IMG/VR virus record: IMGVR_UViG_3300044641_005364
Span: 1 to 47,693 of that record
DNA length: 47,693 nt
Direction: 5' to 3' (one strand)
From: a virus
Numbering within the stretch: position 1 is the first letter of the stretch; each line of letters begins with the position of its first letter. The position numbers and the translations under genes were made by a program. This document shows, piece by piece, positions 2,053 through 42,566 of the stretch. Under the pieces are notes generated by a model that was not told where the DNA came from, made no database searches, and saw only the letters and a program-made list of their open reading frames with translations.

Positions 2053-2088
2053 TAATGTCATTATTGTATTTTAACCAGGAGTTCTGTT

Positions 2089-2748: not shown

Positions 2749-2749
2749 T

Positions 2750-3121
2750 ATGATGCTAACGATAATTGTATTAACTATATGTCTCGGTATTTCAATTTTT
2801 GTTAATATAAATTTGACAAGAAAGTTTGACCATTTAGACGAAATGGCACAAGATAGTGTTGATACACTATTAGAGAATGAGAAATTTTTAACAGAATTGC
2901 GAAACAGAATACGATCACAACAATCCTATTTAAGACAATTAGATAGAATTGGTTCATTTGAAGCAGACGATGAAACTGGATATTTTTTCAAAGAAATGAA
3001 AGATATTATGAATGATATTGCTGTTTATTTTGGTGAGGAACCAATAGACGATGAAAAAAGAAGTATTCTCGAAAACCAAAGGCAACCAGATGTTTCATTT
3101 CAAAAGGATTATTATTTATGA
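2750..3121 (+). CDS. Small membrane-anchored protein, function unknown
   Basis: I do not recognise a family. The 123-residue protein starts with one hydrophobic segment (about residues 3-22). A charged, helical, coiled-coil-like region follows (about 25-70), with an acidic C-terminal part. It most likely sits in the inner membrane with its body in the cytoplasm. The start lies 1 base after the protease stop, and its TGA overlaps the ATG of the sigma factor gene (ATGA at 3118-3121). The gene is therefore translationally coupled to both neighbours. The pairing with a protease upstream and a sigma factor downstream is suggestive, but no function can be assigned. Confidence 0.82.
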   Translation: MMLTIIVLTICLGISIFVNINLTRKFDHLDEMAQDSVDTLLENEKFLTELRNRIRSQQSYLRQLDRIGSFEADDETGYFFKEMKDIMNDIAVYFGEEPIDDEKRSILENQRQPDVSFQKDYYL

Positions 3122-3852
3122 AACAAAAACGTAGTCCAAAGAAACCAAACATTTATTTTACGCAAGAAACAGAAGATGCGATAGTATTGTATAACAAATC
3201 AGAAGATGATATTCAAAGAAATTTGATATACACAAAAAAAATACACCCTGCATTTTACAAACTTGCTGAAATTATGATACATAGATTTAAGTTCTATAAT
3301 TTTGATGTATCACATGAAGATGTCAAACATGAAGTTGTTTCATTTTTACATGAAAAAATTACAAAATATAAAGCTGAAAACGGTAAGGCATTTTCGTATT
3401 TTTCTATTGTTGCTAAAAATTATCTTATTGCTGAGAACAACAAGAACTATTATCATTTCAAACGTAGTCAAGATATTGGTGCAATAGATTTGGAACGTAA
3501 CATTGTAAACGAAAAACTTAGATTTGATTTGATAGAAGAAAGACGTGATTTCATAGATTTATTTGTTAATGTTATTGAAAAACATTTACCATTGTTCTTT
3601 TCAAAACAAAGAGATATACAAGTTGCAGACACCATATTGTATCTATTCAGAACTCGTGAAAACATAGAAAATTACAATAAAAAGGCAATATACATACTTG
3701 TAAGAGAAAGAACGGGAGTTAGCTCACAGTATATTACAAGTGTGATAAATAAAATAAAAGTATTATACAATAATTTATACCGAGAATATAAAGACGGAAA
3801 AAATATAGAAAAAATGTCTTGGTATGACATCCAACATATTATTAACAACTGA
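3118..3852 (+). CDS. 55: Late-transcription sigma factor, T4 gp55-like
   Basis: In T4, gp55 is a minimal sigma factor that binds host RNA polymerase core and directs it to late promoters. This 244-residue protein has a helical sigma region-2-like core at about residues 45-115. It includes SHEDVKHEV (65-73), a KYKAENGKAFSYFS segment (83-96) and a following NYLIAENN helix (101-108), the usual arrangement in gp55 relatives. There is no evident region 4, as expected for this family. The protein is longer than T4 gp55, which has 185 residues. It overlaps the upstream gene by four bases (ATGA). A candidate late-promoter word lies just after its stop. The family call is by pattern, and I am fairly sure of it. 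Confidence 0.83.
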   Translation: MKQKRSPKKPNIYFTQETEDAIVLYNKSEDDIQRNLIYTKKIHPAFYKLAEIMIHRFKFYNFDVSHEDVKHEVVSFLHEKITKYKAENGKAFSYFSIVAKNYLIAENNKNYYHFKRSQDIGAIDLERNIVNEKLRFDLIEERRDFIDLFVNVIEKHLPLFFSKQRDIQVADTILYLFRTRENIENYNKKAIYILVRERTGVSSQYITSVINKIKVLYNNLYREYKDGKNIEKMSWYDIQHIINN

Positions 3853-3861
3853 TATTTATAG
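3852..3861 (+). promoter_or_regulatory. Possible promoter element ATATTTATAG
   Basis: The motif ATATTTATAG matches the core found ahead of several gene blocks in this window. It starts within the stop codon of the sigma factor gene and ends 2 bases before the ATG at 3864. That is too close to serve that start with a normal leader. If it is real, it could serve the baseplate block that begins at 4207. This is the weakest of the candidate sites. Confidence 0.2.
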
Positions 3862-3863
3862 TT

Positions 3864-4226
3864 ATGAAATTTGATGAAGAAATCTTTGGAAGTAAAAAAT
3901 TCTCTGATTTATTGAAAGATATTTACGATAATCAGAAGAAAAAGGATCGTCAGATAAATCTTTTGATTGCTGACTTAAAGCCCATGTTAAACAACATAAG
4001 TGATGCGGCAATACTAGTTCCTGCAATAAAAGATTTTATGGAGGTTTCGGTAAAAAATGATGAACATTTAGTAAAACTAGCCGCAGTAATACAACGGGCA
4101 ATGGGTGATAAAGGTGAAGAATCCTCCTCATTTTTGACTGATGAAGAAAAAGAAGCTCTATTAAAGGGCATACAAGAAATTCAAAACGATCAAGAGGAGA
4201 ATGATAGTGAGCGGCCTACCGTTTAA
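3864..4226 (+). CDS. Small helical protein of unknown function
   Basis: The 120-residue protein is predicted from composition to be helical, with a basic N-terminal third (KKKDRQ near residues 26-31) and an acidic C-terminus. I do not recognise it. No ribosome binding site is visible before the ATG. Its 3' end overlaps the next gene by 20 bases if that gene starts at the GTG at 4207, which points to translational coupling. It sits between the late sigma factor and the baseplate hub gene, so it could be a small virion component or assembly factor. That is position-based inference only. Confidence 0.8.
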   Translation: MKFDEEIFGSKKFSDLLKDIYDNQKKKDRQINLLIADLKPMLNNISDAAILVPAIKDFMEVSVKNDEHLVKLAAVIQRAMGDKGEESSSFLTDEEKEALLKGIQEIQNDQEENDSERPTV

Positions 4227-5703
4227 TCCGCAAGTAACAATAATTGATGGGTTTCCTCGTGAGTGGTTTCCTGCGGAAGTATTGGATGTAGATTACGAAG
4301 GCCGTGATAAAACTGCACTATACACGGTATTATGTAGATTATTGGGTGCAATGGGACAAGGACATAAAGATGTTATACGTGCTCGTGCATTTGATGCTAA
4401 TATAAAAAATATGCCAATTAGGGGAGAGGTTGTTATGCTTACAAAGGCACCGTCTCCTTATGCTAGTGCAGGTGGTGTTTCACAAGAATACTACTATACA
4501 AATCCTGTTTCTGTTCAATCATCAATTCATCATAACGGCATTCCTGGAGTAACTTACTGGGTAGAAAGAACTTCACCTGGTAATCGTGCAAAAAGAAATG
4601 ATGCAGAAGATGGTATTCCACACGAAACCAATACAAAATTTGATACCCATACAACTATTGATCCAATTTTTGTAGAAAGAAAAGACATTTATCCTATACA
4701 ACCATATTCTGGCGATATACTACTCGAAGGTAGATGGGGACAATCTATAAGATTTGGATCAACATTGGATGAAAGAAGAAAATATCCACAAGTTCCAACT
4801 TGGAAAAAAGGTTTAGGTCAAATAGGTAATCCAATTTTAATAATTTCTAACGGAACAAATCCAGAATTAAAACCAAGAAATGAATTTATCTTAGAAAATA
4901 TAGATGAAGACGATTCATCTATTTGGATGACATCTGGACAATATGTAAAATTTGAACCCGCATCCACATATACACCATCAATAACAGATAAAAGTATAAA
5001 TCTTTTTACTAAAAATGAGTTTGGTGGAAATGCTGTAATGATTGCGTCTGATAGAATAATTTTTAATTCTCGTAAGCAAGAATTGATTGGTTTTAGTAAA
5101 GAAGGTATTGGTTTTTCTTCTGAAAAGGGTATATCTCTTGACGGAAAACAAGTAGTTGAAATTGAATCAACACAAAAAATATCGTTAGGTATAAATGCAA
5201 TAGAACCGATATTGTTAGGCAAAAGAACAATGACGTGGTTAAATGATTTATGTCAAATACTATTGAATGTTACACGAGCAATTACACAACAAACTCATCC
5301 AACTGGAACAGGTCCATCCGGTGTTCCTATAAACATTTCTGATTTTTCAACAGCACATTCTGATTTATCAGAGTTACAAAGTCAAATAGAAAAATTACCA
5401 AGCCAATTAGCATTTGTTAATGAAAAGTCTGGTGGTCCATCAGAAAAAGAAGTTCAACAATCCAACGAAAAAATTCTACAAAGTCAATTCATCAAAGAAG
5501 GCGATAATTCTAATTTGTTGGTAGATACCGGTGAGGGAGCGTTGGAAAATGAGGATCCATTAACACTTGTTGCAGATATTGCTGATATTGAACAAGAAAA
5601 AATAAAACTAATAGATCAAATTTTAGGTGATATTGATCCAACATTTGATTATGGAACATCACTAGTCGGTGACGATGCCGGTAATCCTGGAGGACCAGTG
5701 TAA
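4207..5703 (+). CDS. Baseplate hub / spike protein, gp5- or VgrG-like
   Basis: This is probably the central baseplate component that carries the membrane-puncturing spike. The N-terminal part (about residues 1-130) fits an OB-fold-like baseplate domain. A GDILLEGRWGQSIRFGS segment lies at about residues 173-189. Short alternating hydrophobic repeats from about 270 to 335 (IIF..., IGF..., ISL..., VEI...) suggest a beta-helical or beta-prism shaft. The C-terminal half is polar with helical heptads. The start deserves care: ATG at 4201 lies only 1 base after AGGAG (4195-4199), whereas GTG at 4207 is 7 bases away. I therefore prefer GTG, giving 498 residues. No lysozyme domain like that of T4 gp5 is visible. 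A cell-wall hydrolase is encoded three genes downstream instead. The exact family is uncertain. Confidence 0.75.
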   Translation: MSGLPFNPQVTIIDGFPREWFPAEVLDVDYEGRDKTALYTVLCRLLGAMGQGHKDVIRARAFDANIKNMPIRGEVVMLTKAPSPYASAGGVSQEYYYTNPVSVQSSIHHNGIPGVTYWVERTSPGNRAKRNDAEDGIPHETNTKFDTHTTIDPIFVERKDIYPIQPYSGDILLEGRWGQSIRFGSTLDERRKYPQVPTWKKGLGQIGNPILIISNGTNPELKPRNEFILENIDEDDSSIWMTSGQYVKFEPASTYTPSITDKSINLFTKNEFGGNAVMIASDRIIFNSRKQELIGFSKEGIGFSSEKGISLDGKQVVEIESTQKISLGINAIEPILLGKRTMTWLNDLCQILLNVTRAITQQTHPTGTGPSGVPINISDFSTAHSDLSELQSQIEKLPSQLAFVNEKSGGPSEKEVQQSNEKILQSQFIKEGDNSNLLVDTGEGALENEDPLTLVADIADIEQEKIKLIDQILGDIDPTFDYGTSLVGDDAGNPGGPV

Positions 5704-25972: not shown

Positions 25973-28900
25973 ATGGATGTTCTATTAAATGACACCCTTA
26001 GATCTCTTCTAAACAATGGTATAAATGGTATACGGAATAATGATCTAAACTCAATTATTGCAGCAATAGATTATCTGGATACTTTAATTGTAAATGCAAA
26101 TTTTGCTATGAGTGATCCGTATTTATCTCAAAATGATACAATGGCGGTAACTAATACTAGATTAAGAGAAATTTATCTTCAATATCGTTTGTTGTTGGAT
26201 GTATACCGAGTCTATCTTCAACAGACAGGAGGAAATGTAGTATACACTACTTGGTTAGCAACAAGGAACAGTTCTTCTCCATTTAATAATGAAACACCCG
26301 CAAATTATGTAAATAGACAACAACCTATTTGGTATGTTGCAATGGACACAAATGGAGATGGGGTTCTCGATGAAGTTGTACCAGAAATTGATGGATCAAA
26401 TAGAACTAAAAATTGGACAGATTCTACCACAATGAGTGCAGGTTTATACAGATTATTGAGAGACACAGTAGAACCAACCGGTGGAGGATTGTCTGGAAGA
26501 ACTGTTAGAAAGAAAAAAGTCAAATTGGGTGGAACAAAAGTCGGTGTAAAAACGAGTGAAATGGGTAGTCTTGAATTTATAGATGGAACATATTTTGATC
26601 CAATAGGAGTTGATGATCCTGGATCGGATTTTGTAAGTGGCGGTGGTATTCGATGGGAAGGTGAAGGTCTGCGTGATCCAAGAACAGGCGAACTTATACC
26701 TGAAGAAGGCGAAAATCTTGGTGGCGGAAGACCAACCGAAGATGCTATCCGTAGAGAAAGATTGAGAAGGGAATATATTAGAACTCGTGGACGAATACTA
26801 ACAGATACAAATTTAGGGCTAACCACATCAGGTGACCAAGTTGGAAGACCGGGTGCTAGACTTGGTGTTGGTAACAATATACCGATTGTCCCATTGGGAT
26901 TTAATTTTGGAACACCTTTATCCAATGCCATAGCTGTTGCTCCTATGATGGCTCCAATGGGTGCAGCTGGTGCAGCTGGTGCAGCTGGTGCAGCTGGTGC
27001 AGCTGGTGCACCACTTTACTCAACATCGGCAACACCGGCATTATTTGCATCTGCTCCTGGATTGAGTCCTTCTACTTTTGGATTAACTGCCGGTGTACCA
27101 CCACCTTTGACTGCTGGTGGAGCTGGTAATGCTGCAGCTCTTGTAAATTTAGGATCATGTGTTCCACTTTATAGTTTCAAAATAAGACAAAAAAATTCTA
27201 GCAATAATCCAAGAAGGTTTTATGGGTTTAATATAAAACCTACACCACTACTTGATATATCAATGGTTGCTGCTTGTCCTGGCGGAACTGCAACAACATT
27301 ATTTACTGTAACAATTGATCCAAACATTTATTACAATTTTGTTGAAAATTCTCGTGGTGATATTCAGATAGTAAACGGACAAAATTCTACCCAAAATTCT
27401 GTTGGTAAGATAAAATACAATTACTATTATGATTTCATAAGTATTTTACAAAAAATATATGAAAAGATAACTGAAATAGAAGTTCTTCCTGGTGAAATAG
27501 TTTATGATAATATAACGGAACAATTATTAAATGGCTTTCTTCCATTTGTATCTGGAAATACTGGTGTTTTATCAAACTTTTCAAGATTACCAAAAGAAGA
27601 AACCTTTTTCAAATCTGGACCTATATTAACTGGCTTTGCAACAACATTACCAAAAATAGTCCAAGATTACGATTATGCTGGTATAAATTGGTATCAGGAT
27701 ACAGCAGAACGTTCTGCTTCTGGAATGGGAATAATAGAAAACTTTTTCTATATGGCAAGAACTGAATATGGTGGAATATCATATCAAGATGTTGTAACCA
27801 ATACAACGTTAGTTGTAAAATACCCAACAAACGATAGACTTAATAATACTATAACATCATTGATTGATTCAAAAGTTACAGGAGAAGTAGAAAATCTTTC
27901 AACCGGAAACGGAAACGGAAATCAAAATGGGACAATAGATGATGAGTTTGGAACAATAGATGAAAATGGTGACATAGTCATAACATCTGATAAATTCAGA
28001 GGACAATATGTTGATAGATTTTATGGAAGATTGACTTGGGCTTTTGATATTGCATCATCAGTAGACTGTACATCTCCGTATTATAGATCAAGTGCATCAG
28101 TTCAAGGACAGATGTGGAATATAGTATTAGATGATCAATTTGGTACATCTGATTATGAATATCCATCTGCTTTAACAAGTCAAAATTTATTGAACTTGAA
28201 TAGTATAAATCCAACAACAGGAGAAGTAACCGGACCAATAGTAGATATTTTAAGATCAAATGTAGATGTTAAAACTTTACAAACAAATTATGGTCTTATA
28301 CCATCGCTGTCAGTTCGAGGAACTACTTTTGAAACAATTCCTAACAATCCATGTTTAGAGGGTATTCCCGTTACATATAATTGGGGTGTAAGACGAATTA
28401 AAAAGGTTCCATTCAAAATTTTCTGTCAGCAACCTGGATTGGGTAGGGTAGAAATAAATTATAGAACAAAGGGCAGTGATATTTGGAATTGGGTTGTTTC
28501 AGAACTGAAAAAATCTTCTGCATTTGGAGCAAGACAAAATTCAAATGGCGAATTGCTTACAACAAAAGATGGATATTTCTATTCAGAGGCAACCGAAACT
28601 GTGCTAATTACCGGTAGATTTCCGGGTGAACCTGGCACATCATGGAAACAATATGATTCGATTCAGTTAAATAGATCTAATCAAAATTGTCTTCCTGTGG
28701 AAACTGTTGAATCATCATGGCAAGTTGATTTAGATAATCCTTGTGGTTGTGATGAAGTTGAGATATTAACCCATTATCTAACTTATCCAGAAATATCATT
28801 CAAAAATCCTTTGGATGATAACCCAACCGTTTATGCATCACGGAAAGAGTTGAACCAAAGATTTTTAGCTCCTGAACCAGGATCAAAAGCCGCTTCATAT

Positions 28901-30079
28901 CGTTTAACGGTAGGTCAGAGTTTAACAGATAATAGACGCCAAAAACCGGATTGTTTTGAAGGAACTGGAATTGGAAGATTACATCATCCTTTCTTATATG
29001 GAACTGACATACTTCCTGGAATGCGTAAAAAATCTATAAAGGGTTTATTTAATTTATCACAATCACTTGACTGTTATCATACATCTTCTACAAAAACTGT
29101 TACACAAAAAGAATACTACTATGAAGTAACTGATTGTGACGACTGTGGTAGAACTGCTTATTTTGCAGTTGCATACGGTAATTACAAAGGTTCTGGTTCA
29201 ATATCAAGTGGTTATGAAAAAGATGATAGTCCAAGTAAAGCTATTTACTCACAATATAGACTATTGACACTTGATCCACATGAGAAGAATTTTACATTCT
29301 ATGATGGCGGAGAATTAAAAACTCCTGACGATATTTATGTGATAAACTATTATCGAAATGGTTTAAGTGACAAACTTGATATTGGAAATTTTGAAATAAA
29401 CATTGCAGAATTGAGTGGTAGTGGTATAGAAAATAGTGTTCATACTGGCAGTAATGTTCAAGTTAGTTCATCGAATAAAATACTTTCTCTGATTGACAAT
29501 TCTGCAATTTTTGAAAATGAAGATACTTGTGCAAATGATGATCCAAATTATTATTATGACATTGTTAGTGGTTCACTTTCTAATGGAATACATTCCAGTG
29601 GAGAAGGAACTATACAAACAAACGAAGATTTAACAACTTATGGTAAAGTATATCCAAATTTGGGCGTTATAGTTTTAGACGGACATAAATTGAATGTTTC
29701 TGCATCATTTAATTCTGTTAGTGGAAGTGGTATCAATGGTGATAATTCATTCAAACTATTTACTGCAATAAGTGGTGCCGCGGCTGTTGGAAAACCAATG
29801 CGTGCTAGAAATGTAAAATTCAAAACAACAAATCATTATTTTGTCAGAATACCATCCGGTGAGGCAAACTACAGCACAAATCCAACTTATGTTTATGATT
29901 CAGGTGAAAATAAAGGAAAAATAAAAAATGCCTGCTTTATTGATAACCCAATGACTTACATAACAACCGTTGGTTTGTATAATAGTAAACGAGATTTGAT
30001 TGCAGTTGCTAAATTGAGCAGACCAATAAAGAAAACAAAAGAAAATGATGTTTTAATAAAAATAAGATTGAATTGGTAA
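25973..30079 (+). CDS. Large structural protein with C-terminal paralog-family domain (member 3)
   Basis: The 1368-residue protein carries the shared family domain only at its C-terminus (about residues 1015-1368). That part has AVAYGNYKGSGS, KAIYSQYR, DIYVINYYRNG, FEINIAELSGSG, VSGSLSNGI and a final YITTVGLYN...AVAKLSRPIKK. The first thousand residues are unique. They include a helical N-terminus (1-90), a Gly/Arg/Glu-rich linker, an Ala-Gly repeat (residues 330-346) and a long beta-rich region. Paired cysteines stand out (NPCGCDE and TDCDDCGR, before and within the family domain), which suggests metal binding or disulfides. GGAA precedes the ATG. It is probably a large tail or fibre-attachment protein. 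No known fold was recognised in the N-terminal part. Confidence 0.87.
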   Translation: MDVLLNDTLRSLLNNGINGIRNNDLNSIIAAIDYLDTLIVNANFAMSDPYLSQNDTMAVTNTRLREIYLQYRLLLDVYRVYLQQTGGNVVYTTWLATRNSSSPFNNETPANYVNRQQPIWYVAMDTNGDGVLDEVVPEIDGSNRTKNWTDSTTMSAGLYRLLRDTVEPTGGGLSGRTVRKKKVKLGGTKVGVKTSEMGSLEFIDGTYFDPIGVDDPGSDFVSGGGIRWEGEGLRDPRTGELIPEEGENLGGGRPTEDAIRRERLRREYIRTRGRILTDTNLGLTTSGDQVGRPGARLGVGNNIPIVPLGFNFGTPLSNAIAVAPMMAPMGAAGAAGAAGAAGAAGAPLYSTSATPALFASAPGLSPSTFGLTAGVPPPLTAGGAGNAAALVNLGSCVPLYSFKIRQKNSSNNPRRFYGFNIKPTPLLDISMVAACPGGTATTLFTVTIDPNIYYNFVENSRGDIQIVNGQNSTQNSVGKIKYNYYYDFISILQKIYEKITEIEVLPGEIVYDNITEQLLNGFLPFVSGNTGVLSNFSRLPKEETFFKSGPILTGFATTLPKIVQDYDYAGINWYQDTAERSASGMGIIENFFYMARTEYGGISYQDVVTNTTLVVKYPTNDRLNNTITSLIDSKVTGEVENLSTGNGNGNQNGTIDDEFGTIDENGDIVITSDKFRGQYVDRFYGRLTWAFDIASSVDCTSPYYRSSASVQGQMWNIVLDDQFGTSDYEYPSALTSQNLLNLNSINPTTGEVTGPIVDILRSNVDVKTLQTNYGLIPSLSVRGTTFETIPNNPCLEGIPVTYNWGVRRIKKVPFKIFCQQPGLGRVEINYRTKGSDIWNWVVSELKKSSAFGARQNSNGELLTTKDGYFYSEATETVLITGRFPGEPGTSWKQYDSIQLNRSNQNCLPVETVESSWQVDLDNPCGCDEVEILTHYLTYPEISFKNPLDDNPTVYASRKELNQRFLAPEPGSKAASYRLTVGQSLTDNRRQKPDCFEGTGIGRLHHPFLYGTDILPGMRKKSIKGLFNLSQSLDCYHTSSTKTVTQKEYYYEVTDCDDCGRTAYFAVAYGNYKGSGSISSGYEKDDSPSKAIYSQYRLLTLDPHEKNFTFYDGGELKTPDDIYVINYYRNGLSDKLDIGNFEINIAELSGSGIENSVHTGSNVQVSSSNKILSLIDNSAIFENEDTCANDDPNYYYDIVSGSLSNGIHSSGEGTIQTNEDLTTYGKVYPNLGVIVLDGHKLNVSASFNSVSGSGINGDNSFKLFTAISGAAAVGKPMRARNVKFKTTNHYFVRIPSGEANYSTNPTYVYDSGENKGKIKNACFIDNPMTYITTVGLYNSKRDLIAVAKLSRPIKKTKENDVLIKIRLNW
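26960..27010 (+). repeat. In-frame 9-bp tandem repeat (Gly-Ala-Ala)
   Basis: Five perfect copies of GGTGCAGCT (26960-27004) are followed by a partial copy, GGTGCA. Each unit encodes Gly-Ala-Ala, so length changes by slippage would keep the reading frame. The repeat joins the linker and main body of the large structural protein. Confidence 0.95.
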
Positions 30080-31804: not shown

Positions 31805-33544
31805 ATGTCATTTCAAGGTCAAAATAGTAATTTAACTTTTACACATAAACGGTTAAAAGCTGGCGATTTTACAATACGCCCATTTGAAGTTAATAAATTA
31901 TGGAAAATATCATCTATTCATCCGGAAGTAGAACATTATCAAAAATTTGGAATACAAGTATATCGTGCGTTCTATCCTGAAAATCACAAGTATTTTGGTA
32001 ATGTTGCAAATATATCGTCTTCTTTATATGAAAGAATTTTTACAACACAAAGTTTAGATCCAAAAATTTTATGGTATTATTTGGATCATAATTACTATAC
32101 AGAATATGATAATATAAAACAACCAACTTTTTTAACGGATGATAGTCAGATAACATATATGGCAGAATCCGCATCTTTATTTGTAATTCCAGTTGGTGTA
32201 TTTGGTGAGGGTATAAAAAAGAAATCAGTTAGTTTAGTAAACTACAATTCGGCTTCTTCTTACGAATATACATTAGTTGATGATGGATTTGGTAATTTAA
32301 GAGACACATCTTTCGATGAAACAAAGATAGTAAATGCTGGTAATTGTATGATGTATGTTGGATTTAACGAAAAATATCGTGAATACAATATGTCAAATAA
32401 TAAATTGGATTTTGTATTAGACATGACACCACATCGTAATACAATAAATGTTTACAATAAAAAAAATATAACATATACTCCTGGTATAGTATTAAATTCA
32501 ACAAATACTCCAACTGGAGTTGCTGCTCGTATTAGTGGTTCTTATTTTAGAGTTGATCCAAAATTAGATTTTAATTTTAATAAAAATAATAATTTTGCTT
32601 TTAGTTTTTGGATGAAAAAAGACAGTAATCAACCCGATGGAATAAACGGTAAAAATTATCTTTTCAACAAAAATTTAGTAAAAAAAGTATACAATGTGAA
32701 TGAAACAACATTGCAACATACTTACGAGGAAGTTGAAAAAGAATCAAGTCAATATCCATTTGATATATCATATAACAATCACTTATCAACTAATAATGGA
32801 AGATTATCATTTAGACAGGGTTCTATAACCAAAATGATTGAAGTAACATCTAGCGTTTTATCAAGTGATACTTGGTATCATGTCTTGTGTCAAAAATCCG
32901 GAAGCAAATATCAAATATGGTTAGATGGACAACTCAATAGTGAAGTTATTGATAATATGAATGATAATGTTGGTAATGAAAATGTATTTTTTATAGGCGG
33001 TAGCACAAACACATCAAGTCTTTTTTACGGAAGTTTAGATGAAATCAGAGTGTATAATTCTGCAATTTCCGATGAACAAATTCCATATTTGGCAGATAAT
33101 TCTCTAGAAACTGGTTATGCTTATCAAACATCTCGTGTTGGTAATGTTTTTTACAATACTGGATTTGCTGTCATTTCTGATCCAAGACCAAAGTATGCTA
33201 ATGCATTTTTGGGTTCAAGTGGAAATTTTGATTACGATGGAATAACTAATGGGTTTAGAGGACAATTTCGTTCAACTACTACTTTTTATGAATACGAAAT
33301 TATTTGTAAAATAAGAAGAAAAGAATTTAATTTTACACAAAATCCATCGATTCGTGTAGATGAGGCATCTACACGATCAAATGAAATTGAAAATTATGTA
33401 ACATCTTCATATTTTAATCCATACATAACATCTATTGGTTTATATGATGATAGTGATAATTTGCTTGTCATTGCTAAATTAGCAAATCCAATAGAAAAAA
33501 GAGACGATGTTGATATGAATGTCATCATAAGGTTTGATATGTAA
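31805..33544 (+). CDS. LamG-domain structural protein with divergent paralog-family ends (member 5)
   Basis: The 579-residue protein combines diverged family sequence at both ends with a LamG/concanavalin-like insertion at about residues 250-425. The insertion shows the usual pattern: FAFSFWMKKD, then WYHVLCQKSGSKYQIWLDGQ, then FIGGSTN, then GSLDEIRVYNSAISDEQI. The C-terminus keeps YITSIGLYDDSDNL and IAKLANPIEK. LamG-like domains commonly bind glycans, so this member may take part in host-surface contact. The stop codon overlaps the next ATG by one base (TAATG). Confidence 0.86.
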   Translation: MSFQGQNSNLTFTHKRLKAGDFTIRPFEVNKLWKISSIHPEVEHYQKFGIQVYRAFYPENHKYFGNVANISSSLYERIFTTQSLDPKILWYYLDHNYYTEYDNIKQPTFLTDDSQITYMAESASLFVIPVGVFGEGIKKKSVSLVNYNSASSYEYTLVDDGFGNLRDTSFDETKIVNAGNCMMYVGFNEKYREYNMSNNKLDFVLDMTPHRNTINVYNKKNITYTPGIVLNSTNTPTGVAARISGSYFRVDPKLDFNFNKNNNFAFSFWMKKDSNQPDGINGKNYLFNKNLVKKVYNVNETTLQHTYEEVEKESSQYPFDISYNNHLSTNNGRLSFRQGSITKMIEVTSSVLSSDTWYHVLCQKSGSKYQIWLDGQLNSEVIDNMNDNVGNENVFFIGGSTNTSSLFYGSLDEIRVYNSAISDEQIPYLADNSLETGYAYQTSRVGNVFYNTGFAVISDPRPKYANAFLGSSGNFDYDGITNGFRGQFRSTTTFYEYEIICKIRRKEFNFTQNPSIRVDEASTRSNEIENYVTSSYFNPYITSIGLYDDSDNLLVIAKLANPIEKRDDVDMNVIIRFDM

Positions 33545-33957
33545 TGCGTAGAAATCAAGTTGCAATAAAACATGGGTTTCGTAGTGGATTAGAAGATACC
33601 GTAAATGATTTGTTGAAAGAAAGTAAAAAATCATTTAGTTATGAAACTGAAAAAATATCTTACATACAACCAGAAACTAAACACAATTATACGCCAGATT
33701 TTGTTCTAACAAAACAATCTGGTCAAAAGATGTATGTTGAAACAAAAGGTAGATGGGTAAAGACAGACAGACTAAAATTCGATTTACTATTTGAACAATA
33801 TCCCCAAATAGATATTCGTTTTGTATTCCAAAATCCTAATGCAAAACTATACAAAGGAAGTAAAACAACCTATGCTCAATACTGTGACAAGAAGGGTTGG
33901 TTATGGGCGAAAAAAGAAATACCTAGAGAATGGTTAGATGAATGTTTGGATTTGTAA
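33544..33957 (+). CDS. Endonuclease I, T7 gp3-like Holliday junction resolvase
   Basis: This enzyme cuts four-way DNA junctions and branched DNA during recombination and before packaging. The 137-residue protein is close to T7 endonuclease I (149 residues). Its catalytic residues are all visible: E17 in SGLED, D52 in YTPDFVL, and E66 and K68 in VETKGR, the PD-(D/E)XK arrangement of the family. The C-terminus KKGWLWAKKEIPREWLDE also fits. T4 itself uses the unrelated endonuclease VII for this job, so here the T7-type enzyme may replace it. It starts one base inside the stop of the structural gene and opens the nucleic-acid gene group. Confidence 0.92.
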   Translation: MRRNQVAIKHGFRSGLEDTVNDLLKESKKSFSYETEKISYIQPETKHNYTPDFVLTKQSGQKMYVETKGRWVKTDRLKFDLLFEQYPQIDIRFVFQNPNAKLYKGSKTTYAQYCDKKGWLWAKKEIPREWLDECLDL

Positions 33958-34526: not shown

Positions 34527-34558
34527 CTTGTAATTGTCACAAATTTTTACTATATTTG
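34527..34558 (+). promoter_or_regulatory. Possible Bacteroidota-type promoter (CTTG-N20-TATATTTG)
   Basis: TATATTTG at 34551-34558 matches the Bacteroidota -7 consensus TAnnTTTG, with CTTG (34527-34530) 20 bases upstream in place of TTTG. It overlaps the 14-bp palindrome, so binding to the palindrome would block it. It lies 32 bases before the primase ATG. A similar pair with the same 20-base spacing occurs at 45468-45499. Confidence 0.3.
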
Positions 34559-34567
34559 TGACAATTA
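34531..34567. promoter_or_regulatory. 14-bp perfect inverted repeat before the primase gene
   Basis: The left arm TAATTGTCACAAAT (34531-34544) and right arm ATTTGTGACAATTA (34554-34567) are perfectly complementary around a 9-base spacer. The site starts 11 bases after the stop at 34519 and ends 23 bases before ATG 34591. It could be an operator for a dimeric repressor or a terminator-like hairpin for the upstream gene. No long T-run follows it, which favours the operator reading. Confidence 0.6.
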
Positions 34568-34590
34568 TTATTTTACATAAAGTGCGTTTT

Positions 34591-35544
34591 ATGATTAACT
34601 ACGATTTGTTATCTCTTGTAGAAAAAGTTCTCGGTAAAGGTAGACGAACATCTGGCAACAATTATTCTTTCTTCTCACCATTCATCAGTCATTACAAACC
34701 AAAACTTGAAATAGATTTATCAGTAAACAACAATTCAGAAAACCCATGGCATTGTTGGGTTAGTAATGCTAAAGGTAGAAGTATTGTTTCACTTTTCAAG
34801 AAATTAAAAGTCGGTAGACAATTTCAAGAAGACCTCAATAAAATTCTCAAAACAAAAAACCTATACATTCAGAATAAAAAAGTAGAACAAGAACAACTGA
34901 CTTTACCAAAAGAATTTATCAGTTTATATCAGTTTCCAAAGATAAAAGATATTCAGATAAAAATGCAGATGAAACAAGCATTGAATTATTTGAAATCAAG
35001 AGGAATTGGTAGAACAGATATTTTGAGATATGGTATTGGTTATTGTCCGAGTGGAAATTATTCCGGCAGAATTATTGTTCCATCTTACGATGATAATTTC
35101 AATCTAAACTTTTTTGTTTCTCGTTCTATATTTGAAGAAGATGTATTGAAATATAAAAATCCAAAATGGAGTAAAGATGTTATTGGGTTTGAAAGTTTCA
35201 TAAATTGGGAAGAACCTATTACACTCGTTGAGGGTGTATTTGATGCTATTACTGCCAGATACAATGCAATTCCACTATTTGGCAAAATAATTCAACCAAG
35301 ACTTATGGAAAAGATATTATTACGTAAACCACCAAAAGTAATTGTTGCACTTGATAATGATGCAATGAATGATGCAATAAAAATTTCATCTAAACTACTA
35401 TGTGAAGGTATCGAAGTATCAATGGTCAAGATGGAACAAAAGGATATAAATGAAATGGGTTTCAAAGATTTTGTTGGTGTTAAACAAGAAACAAAACCCA
35501 CAGACAGTTATGACATAATTAAACAGAGGATATTATATGCGTAA
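34591..35544 (+). CDS. 61: DNA primase, T4 gp61-like, with degenerate zinc ribbon
   Basis: This enzyme would synthesise RNA primers for lagging-strand DNA replication, with a replicative helicase not seen here. I place the start at ATG 34591 (318 residues). An upstream in-frame TTG would translate through the palindrome. The N-terminus has the DnaG/gp61 zinc-ribbon layout, but three of four cysteines are missing: S29-P-F-I32 and C55-W-V-S58 stand where CxxC and CxxC are expected. The TOPRIM catalytic domain looks intact: E214 in LVEGVFDA and D255/D257 in ALDNDA. A RIIVPSYDD strand precedes it. The stop overlaps the ATG of the next gene by eight bases. The zinc-ribbon loss is odd and may alter template recognition. 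Confidence 0.9.
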   Translation: MINYDLLSLVEKVLGKGRRTSGNNYSFFSPFISHYKPKLEIDLSVNNNSENPWHCWVSNAKGRSIVSLFKKLKVGRQFQEDLNKILKTKNLYIQNKKVEQEQLTLPKEFISLYQFPKIKDIQIKMQMKQALNYLKSRGIGRTDILRYGIGYCPSGNYSGRIIVPSYDDNFNLNFFVSRSIFEEDVLKYKNPKWSKDVIGFESFINWEEPITLVEGVFDAITARYNAIPLFGKIIQPRLMEKILLRKPPKVIVALDNDAMNDAIKISSKLLCEGIEVSMVKMEQKDINEMGFKDFVGVKQETKPTDSYDIIKQRILYA

Positions 35545-38500
35545 AGAAACATTGTGGGTTGGATCACTTGCTAAAGTAGATACAATTATTCATATTGCAG
35601 ATGTTCATATTCGTAATCTTAAAAGACACGAGGAATATCGTAGTGTATTCCAAAAAGTATATGATGTTTGTAGAAAAAAAGTTGAAGAAAACAAAAATAC
35701 AATAATCTATCTTGCAGGTGATATTGTTCATGCAAAAACAGATATGACACCTGAATTGGTTGCAATGGTAACTGAATTTCTTGATACACTTTCAAGAATT
35801 GCTCCAACGATTTTGATTGCAGGTAATCACGACTGTAACTTGAACAACATGAGTAGGATGGATGCACTTTCACCGATAGTTTCTCTTATTAACGATGACT
35901 TCAATAATCTTTTTTATCTGAAAGAAACTGGTGTGTATGAACTTGAAAATGTTGATTTCGTTGTAAACTCTGTTTATGAGAATCCTGAAAATTTCATTTT
36001 GGCAAAAGATGTTAATAGTGGTAGCAAAACTAAAATAGTTTTATATCATGGTCCTGTTGATAGAGCTGCAACTGATGCCGGTGTTCTTATGAAACATAAT
36101 CAAGTAAAGGTTGAAATGTTTGACGGATTTGATTATGGTTTATTCGGTGATATACACAAGTTTCAATATCTTGATGTGGATGGAAAGTTTGCTTATGCAG
36201 GTTCACTCATTCAACAAAATTACGGTGAAGGATTAACTCATGGAATAATTGAATGGGACATTAAAAACAAGAAATCAAAGTTTATTGAAATTGAAAATGA
36301 TTGGTCATACCATACTATTGATGTTGAAAATGGTAAGATAAAAAAATTACCAACAAAGTTTACCAAATACAATTCTATTCGTTTGAGAATAACAAACACA
36401 CCACATTCAGAAGTTAATCAGATAATGACAGAATTGAAATCTATGACAAATGTTATAGACATCAGAACACAACATCTTGTTGGCTCTAGCAATGGTAATA
36501 TACAAACAAAAGTAAATCCAATCGGTAAAATTCGTGATGTTGAATATCAAAACAAATTGATTACGGACTATGTAAGTGATAAGTTTTCAGTATCAGATGA
36601 AATACTTGAAAAGATAAGAAATATAAATCGTAATGTAAACACAAAAATATCAGAGAGTGATGTTGTTCGTAATCTTGTATGGACGCCAATATCATTTGAA
36701 TTTGATAATATGTTTTCTTATGGCAAAGGAAATCGTATTGATTTTTCAAATATGAATGGTGTGTATGGCTTGTTTGCACCTAATGCTAGTGGTAAGTCCT
36801 CATTGCTAGATGCTATCATGTTCTGTCTATTCGATAAGTGTTCCAGAACATTTAAGGCTGCACAAGTTCTTAACAATAAGAAAGAAAACTTCCAATGTAA
36901 ATTACATTTTATGATTGGTGATAAAAATTATTACATTAAGAGAGTTGCAACAAAAGAAAAGAAAGGAAATGTAAAAGTAAATGTAGATTTTTGGTATGAA
37001 GAAAATGGTGATTTGATTTCTTTGAACGGTGAGGACAGAGATACAACAAATTATGCAATCAGAAAATACATTGGAACATACGATGATTTTGTTCTAACTG
37101 CAATGTCATTGCAGGGTAATAATACAAACTTTGTTGATAAGGCGCAAAAGGATAGAAAGGATTTATTGGCACAATTCTTTGACTTAAATTTATTTGAAGA
37201 ACTAAATACTATTGCAACTGATGAAGTAAAGGGATTGCAGGCATTGGTAAAGGAATTTAAGAAACATGATTACTCAACCAAACTTGCCGATGCGAATGGT
37301 ATTCATCAATCAAATACCGTTTTGTTAGAAGAAACGGTAGACCAGAAAGGGTATATCGAAAAGAAAATAGAAAAATTAACAGAAGAAATATCCGAATTAA
37401 ACAAGAAACTTATCCCTACTGATGAAAAATTTTCTTCAAAATCTGTCCAATCATTATTAGATAAGAGATATTTATTAGATAGAAAGATGACTGATTTGGC
37501 AAAGGAATTAACTGTATTAGAAGGTGAATTATCCGATGCAAACTCATCATATGACAAATACAATGGTTTATCAAAAGAGTTTGACAAAGAAACTCTTATG
37601 AAGAATAAAGAAATAGTTGATGATGTTAGAAACAAACTTACACAATTTGAAGCTGATTTGAGAAGTGTGAAGTTGAAAGTCCAACATTGTCAAGATAAAA
37701 TTGATAATTTGAAAGACCATGAGTATGATCCTAATTGTCAATTCTGTGTAAATAACGTATTTGTAAAGGATGCAGAAAAGGCAAAATCTCTTATTTGGGG
37801 ATATGAACAAGATCGTGATGAATTGATATTTGAGATAAAACATCTCGAAGGAGAATTTTCAAAAAGTTCATCTGTATATGCAGAGTTAGAAAAATTACAC
37901 AGTCTTGAAAATAGTGCTTTCAAATATGAAAAACAAATTTACTCAATAGAAAAGAGTATATTTTCTGTAAAAGAAGAACTATCAAAGATTGGTGAAGAAC
38001 TATCATCGGTTGATAGTCAAATTGAAAAATTAAAAGAGAATGAAGATACTATAAATCAAAATGCAAAAATTCAATTAGAAATTGCTGAATTGGAAATGGA
38101 AAAACATAGAAGTTTGAAGATTGAATTAAAAGAGATTGATGAAAACATTTTAGAATATAGTGGAAATGTAAAGGTTAGTGAAAAAATAATAAACGAATGT
38201 GAAGTTTCAATTCAAAAGTTGAAAGACCTTGAAAACGAATATGAGGCATATGATTATTATTTGAAGGCGGTAAATAGAAACGGTGTTCCGTATGAATTGA
38301 TTAGTAATGCTTTGCCAAACATTCAAGAAGAAACGAATAATATATTGGCAAACATTGTTGATTTTCAAGTTCTTTTCGATACGGATGGCAAGAGTATAAA
38401 CACTTACATAGTTTATGACAATGACCGTTTTTGGAATTTAGAATTGTCAAGTGGAATGGAAAAATTTATTTCATCACTTGCAATCAGAACAGCATTGATC

Positions 38501-38719
38501 CAAGTTTCGTCTTTACCAAGACCAAACTTTATTGCCATAGACGAGGGATTGGGTGTCATGGATCCAACAATAATGGCAAACTTCTCTCTGTTCATGGAGT
38601 ATTTGAAAACACAATTCGAGTTTGTTATACTTATATCACACATAGACAGTGTTCGTGATATGGTAGATAATCATATTGAAATTAAAAAGGAAAACGGATT
38701 TTCTAAAATAGAGAGCTAG
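35537..38719 (+). CDS. Fused Mre11/SbcD (gp47) nuclease and Rad50/SbcC (gp46) ATPase
   Basis: This 1060-residue protein contains both halves of the recombination nuclease that T4 encodes as separate gp47 and gp46. Residues 1-340 are the Mre11-type metallophosphoesterase: D22/H24 in ADVHI, D62/H65 in GDIVH, N97-H98-D99 in GNHD, H171 in YHGPVD and GDIH at 204-207. Residues about 385-1060 are Rad50-type: Walker A APNASGKSS (414-422), long coiled coils, a zinc hook C734-Q-F-C737, signature LSSGMEK near 972-978, Walker B IDEGLG with D1002/E1003, and a SHIDS H-loop near 1032. All key residues are present, so it should be active. AGAGGA (35525-35530) is a good ribosome binding site. It would resect double-strand ends for recombination-dependent replication. 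Confidence 0.93.
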   Translation: MRKETLWVGSLAKVDTIIHIADVHIRNLKRHEEYRSVFQKVYDVCRKKVEENKNTIIYLAGDIVHAKTDMTPELVAMVTEFLDTLSRIAPTILIAGNHDCNLNNMSRMDALSPIVSLINDDFNNLFYLKETGVYELENVDFVVNSVYENPENFILAKDVNSGSKTKIVLYHGPVDRAATDAGVLMKHNQVKVEMFDGFDYGLFGDIHKFQYLDVDGKFAYAGSLIQQNYGEGLTHGIIEWDIKNKKSKFIEIENDWSYHTIDVENGKIKKLPTKFTKYNSIRLRITNTPHSEVNQIMTELKSMTNVIDIRTQHLVGSSNGNIQTKVNPIGKIRDVEYQNKLITDYVSDKFSVSDEILEKIRNINRNVNTKISESDVVRNLVWTPISFEFDNMFSYGKGNRIDFSNMNGVYGLFAPNASGKSSLLDAIMFCLFDKCSRTFKAAQVLNNKKENFQCKLHFMIGDKNYYIKRVATKEKKGNVKVNVDFWYEENGDLISLNGEDRDTTNYAIRKYIGTYDDFVLTAMSLQGNNTNFVDKAQKDRKDLLAQFFDLNLFEELNTIATDEVKGLQALVKEFKKHDYSTKLADANGIHQSNTVLLEETVDQKGYIEKKIEKLTEEISELNKKLIPTDEKFSSKSVQSLLDKRYLLDRKMTDLAKELTVLEGELSDANSSYDKYNGLSKEFDKETLMKNKEIVDDVRNKLTQFEADLRSVKLKVQHCQDKIDNLKDHEYDPNCQFCVNNVFVKDAEKAKSLIWGYEQDRDELIFEIKHLEGEFSKSSSVYAELEKLHSLENSAFKYEKQIYSIEKSIFSVKEELSKIGEELSSVDSQIEKLKENEDTINQNAKIQLEIAELEMEKHRSLKIELKEIDENILEYSGNVKVSEKIINECEVSIQKLKDLENEYEAYDYYLKAVNRNGVPYELISNALPNIQEETNNILANIVDFQVLFDTDGKSINTYIVYDNDRFWNLELSSGMEKFISSLAIRTALIQVSSLPRPNFIAIDEGLGVMDPTIMANFSLFMEYLKTQFEFVILISHIDSVRDMVDNHIEIKKENGFSKIES

Positions 38720-38720
38720 G

Positions 38721-41700
38721 ATGGTAGAATATAAAAGACTTAAACGGGATTTATTAAATACTAATACACGGTTTCTAGATACCTCACCGTTATCTACTAA
38801 CTTTTTTAATATAACATCTATTCCAAGTTATTTTTCTGCCGGAAAAAATGGTTTCAAAATAAAACCAAATTTCAATAATCTTTCACAAAATTATCCAATA
38901 TACATTGAAGTTCTTGATAGAAACGGTTATAGTATATTTAGTCATGTAACAACTGCTGAAGAAAATGATGGAACACAGATAATTGCTGTTTATGTTTACT
39001 CATCCGCTGCTCTCGGTCCATCTACAATAACTTTTGTTGGAACGTCAAATGTTGATTTAGCATTAAACAGATTAACACCAAATGATGTAAACCAAAATAA
39101 TATAAAATTTGTTTACAACATTACATTGGATAAGTTCAAACCAAATGATAATGATATTCTTTTTGAAAAAACTCCAAATGTAAATATAACAGAGCGTAAG
39201 TATTCTCTGGTAGAAGACAAATTTACAACTCAAAATAAAAAAACAACAACATCAATTTTTGGTAGATATGAATTAGATAACGGAACACCAAAGATAATAT
39301 CTACTGGTCAAACATTTGAATCAAGTTATTTGAATGGTGAAATAACTACTTCAACATTATCCCCTATAATTCAACCAATAATCGGCTATCAAACTCAATC
39401 TCTATCCTACACATCGTCTATATCTTTTGTTGATAGAAAGGTAATTACATTAAATGATAGATTGAGAGTGATAGGAAATGATGGTCAGAATACTGATATA
39501 CTTTATGCTGAAAATCAAAGTTTCACTTTGTCATATAATCAATCTCCTTCTGCTAAAAACATTACCCAAAATGTTAAAAATTATGCAAAAATAGAATTAA
39601 ATGAAATAGATCCAACAGTTGGTGAAGTTACTCGTATAAAAGTATTGGCAAAGAGCAAACAAGATCCTTCTGCCGATTTCAAAACTATTTATGATGGAAA
39701 AATAGAAACTAAAAATATATTAGTAGATGAAAATTCTATTGATATTGATACCGAAATTGGAAAATTTTCATATAGTATTCCGTATAAAAGTGCTGGAACA
39801 AACACAACACGCATAATATCTTCTGTAAATTATTGGGATGTAACTCCTATAAATGTAACAGTTGATCCAACTGCAAGTTTGTTTAATTCACCAAAATTTA
39901 CAGGTATAGATGTTTTTCTTAATCCTGGAGAAGAAATAACAAATCAAATCGGTGCTATAAAAATATCACAATCAACTGATGTTCAAACATACTATTACAA
40001 AGATACTGTTTACGAATTGTCTTTTGATGGATTCACATATTTTAGCAGATTCGATAAAAGACAACCGTCTTTGAATGTTTATATCTCTGGAAGTTCTTTC
40101 GTACCGGATAGTGAACATGGAAAATTTTTGAAAACTGTATCAGTTCCTTCCACCAAAGAAATCAGTTTTAAGGAAAAAATTCCAATAGTAGTTGATAATA
40201 ATGGTTATGGAAATCTTGCGTTTGTAACCAACCCAGGTGTTGTTTTACAAAATATAAAAGTAACAGAACTTGTTGAATCTGGATTTACCCCAAAGAGAAC
40301 AAAACTTTATGTTCCGATAGAACAAAATCATAAATTAGAACATTTGGATATAAAATTTCAGTATTTCAATGATACTTTACGGGAATCAAATGTTGAAACG
40401 GTAAGTGAAGATGTATTTTTTGTTGGTGGTAATCATTACATATATGGTGATGATAATATGATAACAGGATCTGCATTTTTATCCCAAACAACTTCAAGTG
40501 GTATGCAACTTTATGCAAATTTTCAACAAGGTGTTGGACAAACAACATCTGGTTCGGCAATAAACCCATACCAATATCAAGGCATTCAAAATGCTATAAA
40601 TAATCCAAATAATTCATCAAGTTTTGGTTGGGGATTAACAACCGGAAATCCATATAATTTGAATCCAGGAACATTTTCACAAAATAGTATAAATATGATA
40701 AATGAATGTGGTTCAACATTTAATTTTGGATCAACACCGTCTAGTTTTGATTTATACATATTAGGTTCAAGTTCTGAATTTCTTTTGGGTTGGAGTGGAT
40801 CATATAATCCAATTTTTGGCAGTGGTGGAACTTCTGGAGGTGGTGGTTGTAGTAATGGAACTTGTGGTGAATCATATATTAAATGGGATGGGTGTCAGGT
40901 AACTATACAAAATGCTGTAATCAATGGAGGAACAGGCGGCGGCGGAGGAGGAAGTGCTGGAACTAACGGAACATCTGGAACATCTGGTAACAATGGTTCA
41001 TCTGGAACATCTGGTGCAAATGGTGCTACTGGTACATCTGGTGCAACTGGATCTGGTGGAACATCTGGAACATCTGGACAAACATATGGAACCAGTGGAA
41101 CAAGCGGAACTAATGGTGCAACCGGAACAGCCGGAACATCTGGAACATCTGGTGCAAATGGTGATAAGTATTCAACAACTTCTACTACTTCAAATTCAAT
41201 AGGAACAGGAACAAAAACATTTACAGTAGATACAGGTCTAGCTTTTATTACTGCACAATCTATAATTGCGGCCTACGATTTAACCAACTATATGTCAGGT
41301 GTTGTAACTTCGTATACATCAGGAACTGGTGAATTGATTATCAACGTTACATCTGTATTTGGTAGTGGAACATATGCAGTTTGGAAAATCGGTCTATCTG
41401 GAGATGATGGAGCAGACGGAACATCTGGAACATCTGGAAATTCTGGAACATCTGGAACATCTGGAACTGCAGGTACAAGTGGAACTGCTGGAACATCTGG
41501 ACAAAACGGTTCGTCCGGAAGTGCTGGAACCAGTGGAGAGACATATGGAACATCTGGAACATCTGGAAATACTGGTTCATCTGGAACATCTGGAAATACT
41601 GGTTCATCTGGAACATCTGGAAATACTGGTTCATCTGGAACATCTGGAATATCTGGTACATCTGGAACTTCTGGTACATCTGGAAATACTGGTTCATCTG

Positions 41701-42566
41701 GAACATCTGGAACTTCTGGTGCAAGTGGAGATAGATATTCAACATCATCAACAACCTCAAATTCAATAGGAACTGGATCTAAAACATTTACAGTTGAAAC
41801 TAATCTTGCTTATATCACTGGTCAAGATGTTGTTATTGTATATGATATTTCTAATAAAATGTATGGGGTAATTACATCATATACCACCGGAACTGGAGAG
41901 TTAATAATAAATGTTAGTGATGTAGAAGGTAGTGGAACATATAGTATATGGAAAATTTCATTATCATCAATAGCTGGTAGTTCGGGTACGTCTGGAACAT
42001 CCGGACAAAATGGATCGTCAGGAACCTCCGGAACATCTGGAACAACAGGTACAAGTGGAACATCTGGTACATCTGGAACTTCTGGTACGTCTGGTACATC
42101 TGGTACATCTGGAACTTCTGGAATAAATGGAGATGCTGGATCTTCAGGAACATCCGGAAATACTGGTTCATCTGGAACATCTGGAACTTCTGGAATAAAC
42201 GGTGCAGCTGGATCATCAGGAACATCCGGAGAAAATGGTTCATCTGGAACTTCTGGACAAACATACGGAACAAGTGGAACGAGTGGAAATAATGGAACAG
42301 CCGGAACGAGTGGAACAAGTGTTGGTAAATACACATCTTCATTCGGGGACGGACTTAATAATACTTTTACTTTTACTCACAATCTTGGAACTAAAAATGT
42401 AATGGTATTCATCAGAGAAAATGCATCAGACCAACTATTTGCTCCAAATGCAGCAACAAATAATAATCAACTGTATACTGCAGAAGCTGATACTAATAAT
42501 GATGTTATTCTTGTATTTGCTGCAATTCCAACAATCTTACAACATACTGTAATTATTATGTCATAA
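38721..42566 (+). CDS. Collagen-like tail fibre protein
   Basis: The 1281-residue protein has a beta-rich N-terminal region (1-700), probably for virion attachment. A Gly-rich segment with nearby cysteines follows (CSNGTCGE near 709-716). Three collagen-like runs of Gly-Thr-Ser and Gly-x-y triplets then lie at about 746-814, 893-1003 and 1082-1202. They are separated by two homologous modules of about 80 residues, and the protein ends in a globular cap (1203-1281) with FGDGLNNTFTFTHNLGT. This design suits a trimeric fibre whose tip contacts the host. The cap and modules may bind receptors or act as trimerisation foldons. The start is 1 base after the stop of the recombination nuclease. The receptor cannot be guessed. 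Confidence 0.88.
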   Translation: MVEYKRLKRDLLNTNTRFLDTSPLSTNFFNITSIPSYFSAGKNGFKIKPNFNNLSQNYPIYIEVLDRNGYSIFSHVTTAEENDGTQIIAVYVYSSAALGPSTITFVGTSNVDLALNRLTPNDVNQNNIKFVYNITLDKFKPNDNDILFEKTPNVNITERKYSLVEDKFTTQNKKTTTSIFGRYELDNGTPKIISTGQTFESSYLNGEITTSTLSPIIQPIIGYQTQSLSYTSSISFVDRKVITLNDRLRVIGNDGQNTDILYAENQSFTLSYNQSPSAKNITQNVKNYAKIELNEIDPTVGEVTRIKVLAKSKQDPSADFKTIYDGKIETKNILVDENSIDIDTEIGKFSYSIPYKSAGTNTTRIISSVNYWDVTPINVTVDPTASLFNSPKFTGIDVFLNPGEEITNQIGAIKISQSTDVQTYYYKDTVYELSFDGFTYFSRFDKRQPSLNVYISGSSFVPDSEHGKFLKTVSVPSTKEISFKEKIPIVVDNNGYGNLAFVTNPGVVLQNIKVTELVESGFTPKRTKLYVPIEQNHKLEHLDIKFQYFNDTLRESNVETVSEDVFFVGGNHYIYGDDNMITGSAFLSQTTSSGMQLYANFQQGVGQTTSGSAINPYQYQGIQNAINNPNNSSSFGWGLTTGNPYNLNPGTFSQNSINMINECGSTFNFGSTPSSFDLYILGSSSEFLLGWSGSYNPIFGSGGTSGGGGCSNGTCGESYIKWDGCQVTIQNAVINGGTGGGGGGSAGTNGTSGTSGNNGSSGTSGANGATGTSGATGSGGTSGTSGQTYGTSGTSGTNGATGTAGTSGTSGANGDKYSTTSTTSNSIGTGTKTFTVDTGLAFITAQSIIAAYDLTNYMSGVVTSYTSGTGELIINVTSVFGSGTYAVWKIGLSGDDGADGTSGTSGNSGTSGTSGTAGTSGTAGTSGQNGSSGSAGTSGETYGTSGTSGNTGSSGTSGNTGSSGTSGNTGSSGTSGISGTSGTSGTSGNTGSSGTSGTSGASGDRYSTSSTTSNSIGTGSKTFTVETNLAYITGQDVVIVYDISNKMYGVITSYTTGTGELIINVSDVEGSGTYSIWKISLSSIAGSSGTSGTSGQNGSSGTSGTSGTTGTSGTSGTSGTSGTSGTSGTSGTSGINGDAGSSGTSGNTGSSGTSGTSGINGAAGSSGTSGENGSSGTSGQTYGTSGTSGNNGTAGTSGTSVGKYTSSFGDGLNNTFTFTHNLGTKNVMVFIRENASDQLFAPNAATNNNQLYTAEADTNNDVILVFAAIPTILQHTVIIMS
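40960..42325 (+). repeat. Collagen-like Gly-Thr-Ser coding repeats in three blocks
   Basis: Three blocks (about 40960-41162, 41399-41730 and 41968-42325) consist of 9-bp units close to GGAACATCT, with related triplets such as GGTTCATCT. They encode G-x-y collagen-like sequence. Near-identical 24-27-bp units occur in series (for example AATACTGGTTCATCTGGAAC, repeated at 41566-41690). Such arrays invite in-frame length variation. Confidence 0.95.
41160..41968 (+). repeat. Duplicated ~80-residue module within the collagen-like fibre
   Basis: The segments 41160-41400 and 41728-41968 encode two clearly homologous modules. Shared landmarks in order are YST-STTSNSIGTG, KTFTV, a hydrophobic YD strand, TGTGELIINV and GSGTY-WKI-LS. 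Each interrupts the collagen-like sequence. They look like small globular domains, perhaps trimerisation or glycan-binding units. Confidence 0.9.

Follow-up and report, generated by a model that had tools for sequence, protein, structure and literature searches.

A single-chain Mre11-Rad50 gene on a tailed-phage contig and its relation to fused and two-gene enzymes of phages and giant viruses

Fusions of Mre11 and Rad50 into one polypeptide were described in 2011 by Yoshida, Claverie and Ogata, who listed as carriers Mimivirus (protein R555), Bacillus phage 0305phi8-36, clostridial plasmids, Deferribacter and several eukaryotes, and who found the arrangement compatible with the geometry of the Thermotoga complex (PMC3175470). 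R555-like genes were abundant in the viral fractions of aquatic metagenomes and some of them adjoined phage primases and gp3-type (T7-type) endonucleases; the authors suspected phage carriers, few full-length cases were confirmed and the carrier viruses were not firmly named (PMC3175470). Here we analyse a gene of 1060 codons on a contig of 47,693 nucleotides from an aquatic phage (IMG/VR record IMGVR_UViG_3300044641_005364; this whole stretch is called the window), which encodes an Mre11-Rad50 (gp47-gp46 or SbcD-SbcC type) fusion. A sequence-only reading of the window had treated the joining of the two enzymes as unusual, which was not borne out, as it was reported in 2011, one phage included, and recurs here in many phage genomes. 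The window shares its neighbouring primase and T7-type endonuclease genes with the loci noted by Yoshida et al., and since it agrees with their description in every testable point, it belongs to an already known kind.

The fusion gene, its domains and its conservation

The gene starts with ATG and runs through 1060 codons free of stops, a frame whose chance probability under the base composition of the window is ~5e-37; the longest open reading frame (ORF) in the remaining five frames of the stretch has 127 codons. In the encoded protein Pfam Metallophos matches residues 16-208 and AAA_23 residues 390-625, and the PHROGs matches are SbcD-like over residues 14-375 (2.4e-29) and SbcC-like over residues 246-1059 (2.3e-47). 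All five phosphoesterase motifs were found in the Mre11 part (D22/H24, D62, N97-H98-D99, H171 and G204-D205-I-H207), with Asp rather than His as the motif V ligand, giving GDIH versus the usual GHxH. The bipartite ABC head is complete: Walker A (414-421) and the Q-loop (Q526) come first, and beyond the zinc hook (C734-x-x-C737) follow the signature (S972-G-M-E), Walker B (D1002-E1003), D-loop and H-loop (H1035), the signature reading SSGME versus the usual LSGGE. The ORF, the motifs, Pfam and PHROGs confirm what had been proposed from the letters, namely one unbroken frame holding the Mre11 motifs and then the Rad50 motifs, zinc hook and ABC signature included.

Table 1. Features of the fusion gene and its upstream neighbours (positions in the window)
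Feature	Position	Strand	Basis
Mre11-Rad50 (gp47-gp46 / SbcD-SbcC) fusion gene, 1060 residues	35537..38719	+	ORF and family matches
AGAGGA ribosome-binding-like site, 6 nucleotides 5' of the fusion start	35525..35530	+	Sequence inspection
Mre11 phosphoesterase domain, ~residues 1-240; DVH, GDIVH, GNHD, H171, GDIH	35537..36256	+	Pfam Metallophos; motif conservation
Asp205 codon, motif V, replacing a metal-ligand His (P. furiosus Mre11 His206)	36149..36151	+	Asp in 94/94
Mre11 capping domain, ~residues 241-330, boundaries approximate	36257..36526	+	Predicted strands and helix; 3qg5_C profile match
Mre11 Rad50-binding helix-loop-helix (predicted), residues 335-349 and 354-368	36539..36640	+	Model helices; 3qg5_C residues 203-376
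Linker of ~12 residues (369-380), from Mre11 to the first Rad50 strand	36641..36676	+	Model; spacing in 94 sequences
Rad50 N-lobe: first strand, Walker A, Q-loop	36677..37246	+	Pfam AAA_23; model
Antiparallel coiled coil, helices 551-726 and 741-912	37187..38272	+	Model helices
CxxC zinc hook, residues 734-737	37736..37747	+	Both Cys in 94/94
Rad50 C-lobe: SSGME signature, Walker B FIAIDEG, D-loop, H-loop	38273..38716	+	Conservation; PDB SbcC/Rad50 matches
DnaG-type primase gene, adjacent upstream, sharing 8 nucleotides with the start of the fusion gene	34534..35544	+	PHROG DNA primase 6.2e-30
T7 endonuclease I-like (gp3-type) junction endonuclease gene, upstream	33544..33957	+	Pfam Phage_endo_I 2.2e-42

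We fetched 112 related loci, which, as some were one contig fetched twice, reduce to 93 distinct sequences; apart from the cultured Microcystis phage Mel-JY01 these are viral contigs drawn from many, mostly separate, metagenomes. Motif conservation was scored in 94 aligned sequences. Identity is at least 39% throughout, save for one Rhizobium-phage fusion at ~22%, and one scan gave at least 590 related stretches. A single frame crosses both domains in all 112 loci, and the search for single-chain matches over both domains, which the sequence-only reading had suggested, found many in phage genomes and contigs. Both hook cysteines, the Walker A Lys, the Walker B Asp-Glu and Asp205 are kept in all 94 aligned sequences, the metal ligands and Walker motifs being invariant or near-invariant. 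Ratios of nonsynonymous to synonymous substitution (dN/dS) against nine close relatives were 0.04-0.15 for the whole gene, low in either half, and 0.03-0.18, where computable, over residues 336-385 of the junction, values that indicate strong purifying selection on both halves and across the junction.

An AlphaFold2 model built from 36 sequences (mean predicted local distance difference test, pLDDT, 81) shows an Mre11 fold, a capping domain, two helices (335-349 and 354-368), ~12 residues and then the first Rad50 strand from residue 381, followed by the Rad50 lobes and a coiled coil with arms of ~175 residues each that carries the CxxC hook at its turn. The two helices match the Rad50-binding helix-loop-helix, and the family profile matches Thermotoga Mre11 (1.6e-13; 3qg5_C residues 203-376, the capping and helix-loop-helix part), E. 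coli SbcC (5.9e-37) and archaeal Rad50 (2.7e-18). When the model was searched against the PDB the folds retrieved were MRN, SbcCD, Rad50 and other SMC-type chains. From a gap of 28 Å in the Thermotoga complex Yoshida et al. (2011, PMC3175470) estimated that a fusion would require a linker of 9-12 residues; the ~12-residue linker seen here falls within that range, in one frame with Mre11 first and the helix-loop-helix present, and in the 94 sequences N368 and W382, which bound the stretch between helix-loop-helix and Rad50, are spaced by 11-14 residues (median 14). Sequence, profile, predicted structure and conservation thus back the earlier reading of a covalent gp47-gp46 fusion, and we are confident, short of certainty, that the gene encodes the phage Mre11-Rad50 DNA-end nuclease as one chain.

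Proposed function and competing explanations

By analogy with T4 gp46/gp47, whose role in resection is described (PMC3016280), and with the SbcCD/T4 models of an ATP-dependent DNA-end nuclease that dimerizes by heads and hook (PMC3016280, PMC6265447), the most likely function is that of a gp46/gp47-type end-resection nuclease serving recombination-dependent replication; the ATP-driven nuclease activity, the dimer architecture and the replication role are all inferred from T4 gp46/gp47 and the SbcCD family. We propose that the N-terminal two-metal phosphoesterase bears its own Rad50-binding helix-loop-helix, which the 12-residue linker would tie to the N-lobe of the Rad50 ATPase, and that two chains would pair via ATP-sandwiched heads and zinc hook into a working dimer (M2R2) like that of the two-gene enzymes, the fusion keeping the partners at 1:1. 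Double-stranded ends of the phage DNA would probably be resected or opened, yielding single-stranded DNA for a RecA/UvsX-type recombinase, and this DNA could feed recombination-dependent replication and repair beside the co-encoded primase and T7-type junction endonuclease. Joining the two halves would also secure their equal supply and make one transferable gene. The fixed 1:1 ratio and the "minimal resection machine" suggested earlier are reasonable inferences; as the zinc hook and the ATP-sandwich dimer predict at least two chains, "self-contained" would apply to one gene and not to one molecule.

Four points weigh against this assignment. Literature searches found no biochemistry of any Mre11-Rad50 fusion; the window is a 47.7-kb fragment in which its own recombinase was not seen; at a predicted template modelling score (pTM) of 0.49 the model does not determine how the domains are placed relative to one another; and Asp at the metal-ligand position could alter metal use or strand preference.

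The last point underlies the best-surviving alternative, that Asp205 marks a changed job, either as a mainly DNA-tethering or structural SMC-like protein or as a nuclease whose metal and strand chemistry is altered. GDxH is the form of motif V in the clade of the window, in a group of Tenacibaculum phages and in most of a second clade of phage fusions, and Asp at this position is also reported for Mimivirus R555 (PMC3175470), whereas GHxH is found in cellular SbcD and in split phage proteins of the T4 and SPO1 types. The fixation of Asp205 in the aligned set, its counterpart in R555 and the His of the T4- and SPO1-type split proteins would suit such a change. We nevertheless regard it as improbable, as the remaining ligands are all kept, Asp can itself serve as a metal ligand and the nuclease half has a low dN/dS; in addition, the fused proteins of Cobetia phage Carin-5 and Yersinia phage YerA41 have GHIH and the split T5-type D12 has GDxH. 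The same cases show that Asp and fusion are separable and led us to reject a strict rule by which fusion goes with the motif V Asp; what the alignments suggest is a tendency.

Considerably less probable is that the fusion is a precursor that is cut, or internally re-initiated, into separate Mre11 and Rad50. The near-invariant Met392 lies close to the Rad50 start and would suit re-initiation, yet none of the start codons within codons 355-430 has a ribosome-binding-like site before it, a start at Met392 would delete the initial Rad50 strand, which the model places at 381-390, and the linker is short and near-constant in length.

That assembly or sequencing merged two adjacent genes is hardly credible, although the window comes from a metagenome and many phages have the two halves as neighbouring separate genes. 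The same single frame stands in 93 distinct sequences from mostly separate metagenome assemblies and in Mel-JY01, whose host is named; there are no A or T runs of six or longer close to the junction, the linker length is conserved, and purifying selection acts across the junction. The independent contigs that share the frame are the reason for which we reject an assembly error.

A stop or frameshift near the junction, raised as a possibility in the sequence-only reading, does not appear in these relatives, and neither are the homologues consistently encoded as two genes. Complete relatives within the clade, at identities down to 39%, are all single-frame except LR756508, which has a 1-kb insert, and none of them is an ordinary two-gene pair; partial matches inside the clade stop at contig ends.

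In LR756508.1, a phage genome of 484 kb, the fusion gene is interrupted directly after motif V (GDIHKRQ; locus positions 4580-5590). The insert of ~1 kb codes for a protein in which Pfam recognizes a TnsA-like endonuclease N-domain (5.8e-6), the reading frames before and after it differ, and no Rfam family or intron matches it; it is possibly a homing-type intron, or the gene may be split in two.

Relation to other phage and giant-virus proteins

A relative with a named host is the Mel-JY01 protein WWT39521.1, annotated as "AAA domain containing protein", which is the same fusion with 49% identity end to end and a primase upstream; it differs in having a separate small ORF between primase and fusion. 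The complete 190-kb genome of Mel-JY01 also encodes RecA, a gp41-type helicase, PolB and a clamp loader, and holds no second Mre11 or Rad50 match, its one AAA_23 and one Metallophos match both lying in the fusion.

The two-gene systems share the enzymes and differ in layout. T4 gp47/gp46 and their cyanophage homologues likewise have a short coiled coil and a CxxC hook, but their two genes are parted by small ORFs, motif V is GHxH, and cyanophage gp46 is 20-23% identical to the Rad50 part of the fusion. T5-type D12/D13 (Proteus phage PM135, Vibrio phage Athena) are like the fusion in their GDxH motif V and unlike it in being unfused, the genes overlapping end to start.

Among phages, the fusions of Tenacibaculum phages PTm1 and pT24 and of the huge-phage genome LR756501 branch with the window clade. 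A second clade, of which YerA41 is also a member, comprises fusions of Rhizobium RHph_TM phages, Vibrio phage 1.031.O, Thermus phage phiLo, Escherichia phage IME392, Carin-5 and Xanthomonas phage phiXF1; these fusions are also single-chain Mre11-Rad50 proteins with hook and full ATPase, but they carry an SGGQ/SGGE signature, are ~21% identical to the window protein and form a deep clade of their own. In trees of phage and cellular types the two clades stand apart whether the Mre11 half, the Rad50 half or both joined are used, and in the concatenated tree, where the window clade with the Tenacibaculum group has support of 100/99 and the second clade of 99/98, the split T4, T5, SPO1 and cellular types fall on the side of the second clade. 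We do not claim two independent fusions, since a single fused clade was not rejected by an approximately unbiased (AU) test (p 0.41 for the Rad50 heads and 0.61 for Mre11), so that one or two origins both stand. When the Vibrio 1.031.O fusion and T5-type D12 were used as single-protein queries, the scans returned nothing or near-copies only.

Two further proteins bear on fusion and splitting. In YerA41 the chain is broken elsewhere, positions 1402-3885 encoding Mre11 and most of Rad50 and 3882-4439 the Rad50 C-lobe in genes that overlap by 4 nucleotides, and this is either a real split or a sequencing frameshift. Listeria phage LMTA-57 has a "recombination exonuclease" of 1009 residues (BFVD A0A068CB47) that matches the fusion fold, while its SPO1-type relatives have two genes; it may have arisen by a further fusion, or by a joining of genes in annotation or assembly.

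The top viral fold matches of the model are giant-virus proteins at 20-26% identity, from Tupanvirus (26%), Harvfovirus and Yasminevirus, and a Klosneuvirus fragment at 29% is also among them. They outrank every split phage protein, a ranking of resemblance that does not prove descent, and the window fusion is apparently kin to the giant-virus version. R555 and the other giant-virus fusions likewise have Mre11 before Rad50 with a helix-loop-helix and a short linker, and R555 shares with the window protein His for the last Asp of motif II (GDIVH in the window) and Asp for the first His of motif V. The giant-virus proteins matched are mostly longer, R555 having 1351 residues and a cell-like coiled coil, compared with 1060 residues in the tailed-phage protein.

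Gene setting, carriers and significance

The primase adjoins the fusion upstream in 111 of 121 related loci, and the T7 endonuclease I-like gene lies upstream in 96 of the 108 that have enough flank. Genes for a head maturation protease and a baseplate wedge mark the window as belonging to a tailed phage with a contractile tail. A search for a bacterial source among 84,980 genomes found the fusion on three contigs of metagenome-assembled genomes only, filed as Nitrosopelagicus, Chloroflexi and Gammaproteobacteria (identity 40-45%), which are probably stray phage sequence binned with cellular genomes, and the plasmids scanned gave remote partial matches only.

Directly downstream of the fusion, positions 38721-42566 encode a protein of 1281 residues with long SGTSG repeats (31 GTSG), perhaps a virion fibre, whose gene has arrays of 9-, 18-, 27- and 72-bp units at 40968-42321. 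A perfect tandem repeat of 5.7 copies of GGTGCAGCT lies at 26960-27010 within an ORF of 1368 residues (25973-30079).

What is new here are the tailed-phage carriers, the two deep phage clades, the apparent fold kinship with giant viruses and the motif V Asp in most phage fusions tested. The phage fusions are a large, conserved family of tailed phages with a fixed primase-fusion setting, and the carriers not firmly named in 2011 are now seen as whole contigs of tailed phages with contractile-tail genes, Mel-JY01 giving the family a relative with a named host. As the fusion is often annotated "AAA domain" or "coil containing protein", it is easily missed in phage genomes. An enzyme made as one chain can readily be expressed, which would allow direct tests of the Mre11-Rad50 link, the stoichiometry and the Asp ligand. 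It is a possible, if doubtful, extension of these results that the fusion of aquatic tailed phages and the giant-virus R555 are one lineage, with transfer either way, and that a fusion-linked change from His to Asp at the metal site alters the chemistry of the nuclease; if true, giant viruses would have acquired their single-chain Mre11-Rad50 from phages, or vice versa.

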